Shown in pieces: positions 43,274 through 45,577 of a stretch of DNA of 64,000 bases (positions are counted from its first letter, which is position 1; every line of letters begins with the position of its first letter). Origin of the DNA: an uncultured Verrucomicrobiota bacterium (GTDB lineage Bacteria > Verrucomicrobiota > Verrucomicrobiia > Limisphaerales > UBA9464); the NCBI GenBank assembly GCA_903907995.1, contig CAIVQH010000060.1, forward strand, positions 248,001 to 312,000, given 5' to 3'. The notes beneath the pieces are model-generated. The model did not search any database. It saw only the letters and a program-made list of their open reading frames with translations, and was not told where the DNA came from. The position numbers and the translations under genes are program-made.

Positions 43274-44500
43274 CTATCGTTGGAGATACTTCACTACCGC
43301 CTCCGTCCGCGAATGCACTCCGAGCTTCTCGTAAATGTTCTTCGCATGGCCGTGGACCGTCCAGGCACTGATGTGGAGCGCATGGGCGATCTCCTTGTCC
43401 AGGAAGCCCTTGCTGAGCAGGCCGAGAATCTCCAGTTCGCGCGGCGTCAGCCGGGCCATTTCCAAGCTGCCACCCGCCGGCACCCGTGAGCCGATCAGTT
43501 GTTGGAAATAGCCGAGCACGCGCTGCGCGATCTGGGCCGGCGTGGGCCAGCCTTCGCCGGCATTTCCCGCCAGCGGTTCAAAGATGCGGTCGGTCGGCGT
43601 ACGCCGAAGCAGATAGCCGATGGCGCCGCCGGGCGTGGACCGGAAGAGCTGGTCGCTGTCATCATACACGGAATAGACCAGCCCCGGAACATTGGGCGCG
43701 AGCCGGCGCAGCCGGTCGAGAAATCCGGAACCCGACACGTCGGCGAGCGTGTGGTTCACGAGCAGCAGGGCCACGGGGTTGCGGGCCAACCAGAGCAAGG
43801 CTTCGCTCGCCTCGGCGAAACCGGCCACGCAACGGAAACCTGCCTGTTCGTCCGCGCAAGCGGTCAGCGCCTGCCGTAGACCGAGGTCGGGTTCGACCAC
43901 CGCAACCGGCCAGACCCTGGCCTGACGTCGGCCGGCCTGGCCTTCCTTGCGCTCCGCCGGCGGGGTAACGCGCGTATGCAAGGTGAAGTAGGTCCAAGCC
44001 ATCGGATTGGCGGTCCAGCGGAACGCGAGGGTCAGCTCACGCGGAAAACGGGCGTGGGCTTCGGCGATTCCGTGCCGTTGAACCACCTGTCGGATACGAC
44101 GCGCGAGCCGGGTGGCCACCGCTGATTCGGCCGATCCGAGCGGAAAGTAATGATGCCGACCGGCGCATTCGAAGTGCGCGGAGAACTCCGGATTAGCCAG
44201 CTGCGTCAGGGCCGGTGGATGAGGTCGGACGAGGAGTCGTGGGCGGAAAATGGCAGCGGCACCGGTCCGGGGAGACCCTCCTTCAGCGGTTCCAACGGCA
44301 GTGATTCGCGCATAGAGGCGGAGAGCCTCCTGCGCTGCCGCCGGCCGGCTCCGTGCCCGCAGCGCGTAGGTCTGCCGCTGGCCAGCGTGCTGAATCTTCA
44401 CGCTCCAGCCCTGGACTCGCTGCGTGCGGCCGTTCCTGCTGTAAGAGTTTCGGTAAAGACGGCGGGTCCAGTAGGCGATCGAGTTTTTTACCCCGGACAA
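43274..44500 (-). CDS. LuxR-type regulator with two integrase-arm-like modules and a pseudo-receiver
   Basis: About 408 residues. No ATG is available; a TTG ending at 44500 or a GTG ending at 44533 could be the start, just before AYWTRRLYRNSYS. Module 1 (GWSVKIQHAGQRQTYAL...AAAQEALRLYARI) and module 2 (EFSAHFECAGRHHYFPLGS...) resemble the arm-type DNA-binding domain of tyrosine recombinases. A receiver-like domain follows (VAVVEPDLGLRQAL), but the phospho-acceptor position reads LLLVNHTLADVSG, so phosphorylation is unlikely. The C-terminus is a LuxR/NarL HTH (LTPRELEILGLLSKGFLDKEIAHALHISAWTVHGH). It is divergent from the pseudopilin operon. The DNA upstream of 44545 is open in this frame only by chance. 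Confidence 0.78.
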   Translation of the reverse strand: MSGVKNSIAYWTRRLYRNSYSRNGRTQRVQGWSVKIQHAGQRQTYALRARSRPAAAQEALRLYARITAVGTAEGGSPRTGAAAIFRPRLLVRPHPPALTQLANPEFSAHFECAGRHHYFPLGSAESAVATRLARRIRQVVQRHGIAEAHARFPRELTLAFRWTANPMAWTYFTLHTRVTPPAERKEGQAGRRQARVWPVAVVEPDLGLRQALTACADEQAGFRCVAGFAEASEALLWLARNPVALLLVNHTLADVSGSGFLDRLRRLAPNVPGLVYSVYDDSDQLFRSTPGGAIGYLLRRTPTDRIFEPLAGNAGEGWPTPAQIAQRVLGYFQQLIGSRVPAGGSLEMARLTPRELEILGLLSKGFLDKEIAHALHISAWTVHGHAKNIYEKLGVHSRTEAVVKYLQR

Positions 44501-44523
44501 CGCTTCCGCCTGAACTGGAATGT

Positions 44524-44545
44524 GCTTGGACACTGCTTGGACACT
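44524..44545. repeat. Tandem 11-bp repeat GCTTGGACACT x2
   Basis: Two perfect head-to-tail copies (44524-44534 and 44535-44545) lie at or just before the start of the LuxR-type regulator. The 11-bp period places both on one face of the DNA, as expected for a dimeric or tandem operator. It covers one candidate start codon (GTG). Confidence 0.6.
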
Positions 44546-44749
44546 AATGTGGCACGGCCACCGAGGTGACAATGATTTTCTGCCGGCCTTTCCCCCGTCG
44601 CACGGCCTGCGGCCAGCCATCCGGGCCACCGGCCGGCGGGAGGTCACACCGCCGTGACGCCGGGGTGACGGCCCGGCGGGCCACCGCCCCCCAAACGGGC
44701 AATGGCCATATCGGTAGCTCTCCTTAAATTGCCCAAAGCTAACCGGATT
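44546..44749. promoter_or_regulatory. Divergent control region with 11-bp-phased GTCAC/GTGAC sites
   Basis: This spacer separates the LuxR-type regulator (minus) from the pseudopilin operon (plus). GGTCAC at 44642, CGTGAC at 44653 and GGTGAC at 44664 start exactly 11 bp apart, and another GGTGAC is at 44565. The phasing suggests a set of protein-binding sites. The last 50 bp before the pilin ATG are AT-richer (CTCTCCTTAAATTGCCCAAAG) and may hold its promoter. Confidence 0.4.
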
Positions 44750-45577
44750 ATGCACTGTGATTTTCGCCAGGTCGGTGGTCCTGCTTCGGTTTCGCCAGGA
44801 CGTTCTCGAAACGCGTTCACCCTGATTGAGCTGCTGGTGGTCATCGCCATCATCGCCGTGCTGGCGTCGATGTTGCTGCCCGCCCTGAGCAAGGCCAAGG
44901 GGCAGGCCCAGGCGAGCTTCTGCCTGAACCACACCCGTCAGCTCGTCATCGCCACCCACCTGTACAGCGGCGACAGCGGCGACTGGTTCCCACCCATCCA
45001 GGCACAGATCACCGGTGGCGAATCCAGCTGGCGCGCCTATCTGTATCGCTACGTCGGCCAGAACGCACACGTATATGACTGCCCTAACGAGAAGGTTGAA
45101 GTCTATTCCAGTGCGCGCCGCGCCGGACAGAAGACCGGTGCGGGCAAGCCGGAACTGTTGGGCCAGTTCAAGGATGGTGAGATCGACATTCCGAGCGGCA
45201 TCGGAGCTGTGAACGTCCACTGGACGTCCAGCACTGCGACTCCGCCCTTTGGGCGGCCCAAGGGCTATGAGGACAACGTCTGCCGCTGGAGCAAGGTGGA
45301 ACGCGCCTCGCAGCTGATCCTCTTCGGCGACGGCAACAGTGACATCAATGGCGTCTGGCCCCGTGACCGCTGGTGGATCTGGAAGGAAGTTGGTGATCCC
45401 GCCACGGCAGGCTTCAACCGGCTGGCCCAGGGCGACAAGGGCTCGGTGCGGCACAACCACAAGGCGAATTACTCCTTCGCCGATGGCAGCGCGCAACTGC
45501 TGGATGGCGGGCGGATTCCCTGCAACACCACCGAGTGCTGGTGGTCGGCCAAGGCGGATACCCACAGACCCGGATGA
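44750..45577 (+). CDS. Type II secretion/type IV pilus-like pseudopilin, H-X9-DG type
   Basis: 275 residues from MHCDFRQVGG; an earlier in-frame ATG at 44702 would add 16 residues. The prepilin leader is cut before Phe23 in NAFTLIELLVVIAIIAVLASMLLPALSKAK, with the Glu at +5. The globular part reads SFCLNHTRQLVIATHLYSGDSGDWFPP, and the C-terminus has RHNHKANYSFADGSAQL, which matches the H-X9-DG motif of PVC pseudopilins. Such proteins are very numerous in PVC genomes, but no function has been firmly shown. It overlaps the next gene by 4 bp. Confidence 0.9.
   Translation: MHCDFRQVGGPASVSPGRSRNAFTLIELLVVIAIIAVLASMLLPALSKAKGQAQASFCLNHTRQLVIATHLYSGDSGDWFPPIQAQITGGESSWRAYLYRYVGQNAHVYDCPNEKVEVYSSARRAGQKTGAGKPELLGQFKDGEIDIPSGIGAVNVHWTSSTATPPFGRPKGYEDNVCRWSKVERASQLILFGDGNSDINGVWPRDRWWIWKEVGDPATAGFNRLAQGDKGSVRHNHKANYSFADGSAQLLDGGRIPCNTTECWWSAKADTHRPG

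Follow-up and report, generated by a model that had tools for sequence, protein, structure and literature searches.

A putative integrase-derived regulator with a pseudo-receiver and a conserved tandem DNA site at its own start in a Limisphaerales bacterium

RESULTS

Layout of the regulator locus

Here, we present an analysis of a regulator gene and its surroundings in a 64,000-nucleotide stretch of DNA (the window) from an uncultured Verrucomicrobiota bacterium of the order Limisphaerales. An ORF check confirmed the regulator ORF on the minus strand at 43274-44545, as delimited in an earlier sequence-only reading. The likely start codon is the GTG at 44533-44531, four codons inside that interval, since this position is occupied by ATG or GTG in relatives. 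The locus contains the following features:

43274-44533, minus strand: regulator coding sequence, GTG start at 44533-44531, stop at 43274, 419 amino acids, AlphaFold mean pLDDT 82.1
44524-44545, minus strand: tandem site AGTGTCCAAGC-AGTGTCCAAGC with an 11-bp period, overlapping the GTG start; candidate operator for module 1 (no binding data)
44285-44476, minus strand: module 1 (residues 20-83), integrase-type arm-binding (putatively AP2-like) domain, based on hhalign, a tree, and predicted strands followed by a long helix
44051-44257, minus strand: module 2 (residues 93-161), diverged copy of the module 1 type, based on hhalign and VIA-align
43970-44050, minus strand: conserved linker (residues 162-188) of the RELTLAFRWTANPMAWTYFTLHT type, predicted beta-hairpin (AlphaFold strands 166-175 and 178-186)
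43580-43906, minus strand: pseudo-receiver (residues 210-318), Pfam Response_reg, 34.5 bits
43292-43453, minus strand: LuxR/GerE helix-turn-helix (HTH; residues 361-414), Pfam GerE, 64.2 bits
44654-44669, no strand assigned: intergenic GTGACGCCGGGGTGAC element, conserved as GTSACCCCGGCGTSAC in an alignment with three relatives
44702-45577, plus strand: divergent prepilin-like gene, probable regulated neighbor, Pfam N_methyl, 31.7 bits (N_methyl at 44801-44878)

The Response_reg and GerE matches are both above the Pfam cut-offs, and the LuxR-type HTH claimed previously is borne out by the GerE score. The protein has the NarL/FixJ layout of a receiver followed by a GerE HTH (Pfam, Foldseek), and the best Foldseek matches for the GerE HTH part are full-length NarL-type regulators, e.g., VraR and LiaR. 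The N-terminal half has no match above the cut-off in Pfam or NCBIfam, and the catalytic domain (RKHRH-Y) of tyrosine recombinases is absent, Response_reg and GerE being the only Pfam matches above the cut-off. In an alignment of two-module regulators, E166, W173, and P177 of the linker are invariant. The family is a new architecture made from known parts; we found no description of such an architecture in the open-access papers searched, and a description elsewhere is not excluded.

The N-terminal modules match those of tyrosine recombinases

The two modules of ~65 residues each are genuine repeats of one another (hhalign, 99.4%). Using residues 1-208 of the protein as the query in genomes of the same order, we identified two kinds of proteins, i.e., similar regulators and longer ORFs that match module 1 only. 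The longer ORFs are tyrosine recombinases: the catalytic residues are in place, all seven ORFs tested have a Phage_integrase match (one below the curated cut-off), and an integrase PHROG match was obtained in 23/23. Modules of this type stand at the N terminus of tyrosine recombinases from the same class of bacteria. Outside the order, a phylum-wide search returned one-module matches in long ORFs, of which those tested further were integrases. We note that the integrases in our sample were found by their similarity to module 1 and that related genomes are not independent samples. Module 1 aligned with the N-terminal module of the recombinases over its whole length (hhalign, 99.9%), and module 2 matched the integrase module at 99.7%; the previous proposal of recombinase arm-type modules thereby gains a sequence match to real tyrosine recombinases. 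In a tree of 164 modules, a single branch (100/98) contains all integrase modules and all copies of module 1, with every module 2 outside it; many forks of this tree are unsure because the modules are short.

AlphaFold predicts strands and one long helix in each module. Among the best VIA-align rows for module 2 were the AP2 domain of SIP2 (Z 5.0) and the arm-binding domain of the P4/HPI integrase (Z 4.0/3.9). In the structural comparison with integrase arm domains, which had been suggested as a check, the resemblance to AP2/arm-binding domains thus rests on modest Z scores. Plain Foldseek of the N-terminal model ranked dsRBD folds above AP2, and Pfam AP2 matched one family member with E = 0.0013. 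Module 2 of the window protein lacks the YW motif. Separately, a profile search of solved structures returned only oligopeptidase matches, which look like chance. Based on these alignments and predictions, it is supported that Verrucomicrobiota regulators captured the arm-binding module of a virus-type integrase, which was fused to a receiver and a LuxR HTH.

The receiver lacks the phospho-acceptor Asp

The phospho-acceptor column is occupied by Asn260 (codon 43756-43754). The sequence-only reading had placed Asn/His here; the residues are N-H, of which Asn is the aligned one, and no intact acceptor Asp, which would have spoken against that reading, emerged after alignment. Asn is present in 39/39 sequences of the two-module alignment and, in a larger set, in 53/55 two-module and 26/36 one-module homologs; three one-module relatives have Asp. 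Among the rows of ordinary NarL-type regulators from these genomes, on which this comparison rests (a NarL row served as a label only), seven have a residue at this column; six of these have Asp, and the seventh is a family member whose sequence is split over two frames. The second acidic position is Pro in most two-module homologs, including the window protein, which also has Arg in place of the receiver Lys. The protein thus meets the criterion for pseudo-receivers, i.e., the absence of the residues for phosphotransfer. Pseudo-receivers are known and often act via dimerization, while their control is largely unexplained (PMC12632262). Judged from these residues, phosphorylation is most likely not the switch of this regulator.

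A tandem site at the regulator start accompanies module 1

Repeated DNA sites had been predicted for this protein, and we found a direct repeat of GTCCAAGC, with units 10-11 bp apart, at the 5' ends of the regulators, over or beside the start codon, including the start of the window's regulator itself; binding to it is inferred. The copy at 44524-44545 is the sole exact doublet in the 5.1-Mb genome, and four genomes with differing flanks share all 22 bp of it. Allowing up to one mismatch per unit, the doublet is present in 49/55 two-module and 0/36 one-module regulators (in-gene control, 2/55; mononucleotide shuffles, 0.03%); with two mismatches per unit, 53/55 two-module regulators have it. 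The doublet accompanies module 1 and is absent where module 2 stands alone; for module 2, no site was identified. Across the order, exact matches with a 10- to 11-bp period lie mostly at regulator starts.

The doublet is encoded by the peptide MSKxRPS, with its two units in different frames. Arg is CGT in 29/29 cases compared with a background of 12% in the same genes, and Pro is CCA in 29/29 compared with 11.5%; the invariance of these codons against a background of ~12% shows that the doublet is kept as DNA. Because the sequences are related, p-values for this codon bias are not independent. Relative to the start codon, the units are at −11/0 in some regulators and at 0/+11 in others.

Of the exact doublets found elsewhere than at regulators, those that were read appear mostly to be due to chance or to belong to truncated genes. 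One GTCCAAGC doublet (L207, ~2156) is flanked by a prepilin gene and a sulfatase-like gene, and the 4.5 kb read there contain no regulator; this doublet may be a target site or the remnant of a regulator.

Integrase genes with the module have tandem repeats of their own

Among integrases with the module, 49/57 have a tandem repeat within 250 nt 5' of the module, mostly with an 11-bp period (in-gene control, 1/57; shuffles, 1.7%). In several (L064, L070, L086, and L188), 190-250 nt separate the upstream repeat from the module, which probably places the repeat beyond the coding region. The repeats differ in sequence between integrases (e.g., L187, L069, L076, L084, L107, and L123, among others); for instance, the start repeats are GTGTCCAAG in L185, AAGTGGCCAAGA in L187, AAGTGGAACAGA in L080, and AAACCGGACAGA in L079. 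The integrase with the module nearest to module 1 of the regulators has GTGTCCAAG repeats, and over the integrases, similarity of the module to the regulators tracks similarity of the site (rho 0.46). A Mantel test of module against repeat gave 9/500, with only a weak effect (partial correlation, 0.17). In other systems, arm-binding domains recognize accessory arm sites (PMC8138268), and the IntS integrase of KplE1 represses its own gene via sites overlapping its promoter (PMC2951348).

An integrase of the window's own genome that does not have the module (L224, C55) carries TGCGCAACAGT twice at its start, as an 11-bp tandem repeat of different sequence.

One-module relatives and distribution

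One-module regulators lack both module 1 and the doublet. Well-supported branches of the tree require a minimum of five transitions between the one- and two-module forms, so the association of module 1 with the doublet does not reflect a single event. On this tree, module 1 appears to have been gained or lost several times, with the ancestral state unresolved. One gene counted as one-module (L139) has a module 1 upstream in another frame, together with a doublet, and is probably a frameshifted two-module gene. One-module regulators of the window's family share ATCCCCCAnnnGGG near the start (L016, L019, L025, L028, L034, and others), where it is kept as DNA though the reading frame differs.

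Roughly a third to two-fifths of the genomes of the order have family matches, a count that includes integrase matches. The earlier suggestion of an expanded family in Limisphaerales holds only weakly, with usually one or two copies per genome. A related-locus search with the single protein returned one relative, in a Verrucomicrobia MAG, with 90% identity. Viral contigs contained no relatives of the regulator and, among the matches listed, phage records matched only the receiver-HTH half; thus, there is no sign of a phage-borne regulator.

Divergent neighbors

Of the two-module regulators, 14/55 have a divergent prepilin gene within 900 bp, as do at least 16/36 one-module regulators, compared with an expected adjacency of about 0.6% (from 68 prepilins in 5.1 Mb; not corrected for relatedness). 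Because only a minority of two-module regulators adjoin a prepilin gene, control of prepilins is not general. The other divergent neighbors are often exported or surface-linked (PEP-CTERM/LamG, Reelin-like, PQQ propeller, GH9, and solute-binding protein) and also include a TPR-sulfotransferase and an MFS transporter. The TPR-sulfotransferase gene is divergent to the regulator in L163, L165, and L151, i.e., in three genomes of three families. Of the 68 N_methyl prepilin-like genes in the window's 5.1-Mb genome, two adjoin this regulator family. The intergenic GTGACGCCGGGGTGAC element is a weak candidate for the site of the LuxR HTH, and no sigma-70-like promoter was found, although promoters of this phylum need not fit this pattern.

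DISCUSSION

Our computations establish the domains and their relation to integrases, the Asn at the acceptor position, and a conserved doublet that occurs together with module 1. We consider it likely that the protein is a local regulator that derives from an integrase, is not phosphorylated, and regulates itself; in the absence of binding or expression data, both its binding to DNA and this autoregulation are inferences. According to this model, the 5' segment of an integrase gene, encoding the arm-binding module, would have been fused to a gene for a receiver-HTH protein to give an atypical NarL-type response regulator, and the tandem repeat of the integrase gene start probably came along with the module, a joint capture that we infer. 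Module 1 would bind both GTCCAAGC units, which are spaced by one helical turn and lie over the start codon of the regulator's own gene, and the bound protein would control, and probably repress, its own expression, with the sign of this effect likewise inferred. The GerE HTH may contact the intergenic region and control the divergent gene, here the prepilin gene, although these targets are inferred as well. Because the receiver cannot take a phosphate, activity would be set by dimerization, protein level, or an unknown ligand.

Several other explanations have to be considered. The doublet could be an attachment or recombination site, with an integrase targeting, or having targeted, the regulator start and the regulator being there by chance. 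The similar repeats at integrase gene starts and an inverted, core-site-like GTGTCCAAGC pair in L093 would fit this explanation; however, no regulator locus that we read contains an integrase ORF, the doublet goes with module 1 and is missing where there is only module 2, and the site persists in the window's own genome, which has no integrase matching the integrase or module-1 profiles. We regard an attachment site as unlikely. It is also conceivable that the modules are dimerization or architectural domains that no longer touch DNA and that the site is merely left over from the integrase ancestor, as might be suggested by the divergence of module 2, with its missing YW motif in the window, and by dimerization being a common mode of pseudo-receivers (PMC12632262). 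That rare codons are fully conserved among diverged relatives would be unexpected for a relic, and the site is missing from all regulators without module 1, making this explanation quite improbable.

That the repeat overlaps the start codon in most regulators raises the possibility that its conservation reflects a role in translation or as an RNA element, such as a structure or leader in the start region, rather than as a DNA operator. We judge such a role to be very improbable: relatives differ by one unit in the register of the repeat to the start codon, and in several integrases, the repeat, at 190-250 nt upstream of the module, is probably not part of the coding region. Lastly, an ordinary phosphorylated response regulator with decorations is hardly credible given Asn in 53/55 two-module homologs and Pro at the second acidic position in most of them, even though the receiver scores above the Pfam cut-off and three one-module relatives have Asp.

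Returning to the integrase-derived, autoregulating regulator, a broader form of the model is that a DNA-binding domain and its cognate site were captured together from the integrase of a mobile element, giving a self-targeting regulator in which module 1 and the site are kept or lost together, and that the class-wide 11-bp start repeats may report the specificity of arm domains and, thus, represent a readable protein-DNA code. We are evenly divided about this broader proposal. If true, it would be a clear case of the recruitment of an integrase DNA-binding domain and its operator into a bacterial transcription regulator, in parallel to the eukaryotic AP2 factors. Moreover, the gene-start repeats would be predicted binding sites for dozens of arm domains at once, and with a predicted site at each gene start, the rules of recognition become directly testable. 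It would also provide a first handle on the control of the prepilin genes, which are numerous (68) in the window's genome.

The modules of the regulator are homologous to the N-terminal module of recombinases of the same class and resemble the arm-binding domain of tyrosine recombinases (P4-like/HPI integrase, 3jtz and 3rmp; Tn916/lambda type), with beta-strands and a long helix also predicted for the modules; in addition, direct-repeat DNA sites are found at the integrase gene start as at the regulator start. Unlike the recombinases, the regulator has no core-binding or catalytic domain but two tandem modules attached to a receiver and an HTH. NarL/FixJ regulators with pseudo-receivers share the receiver and GerE layout and likewise lack the phospho-acceptor Asp; here, however, two integrase-type modules precede the receiver. 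The AP2 transcription factors of plants and Apicomplexa (TEM1 and SIP2) have a fold to which the one predicted for the modules appears related, and SIP2 also has a tandem pair; a separate origin is likely, and the modules described here are bacterial and joined to a NarL-type regulator. Finally, in autoregulated integrase genes (KplE1 intS and P4 int), the sites of the integrase overlap its own promoter or start region (PMC2951348); in contrast, no recombination is possible for the protein described here, and the loop would be purely regulatory.
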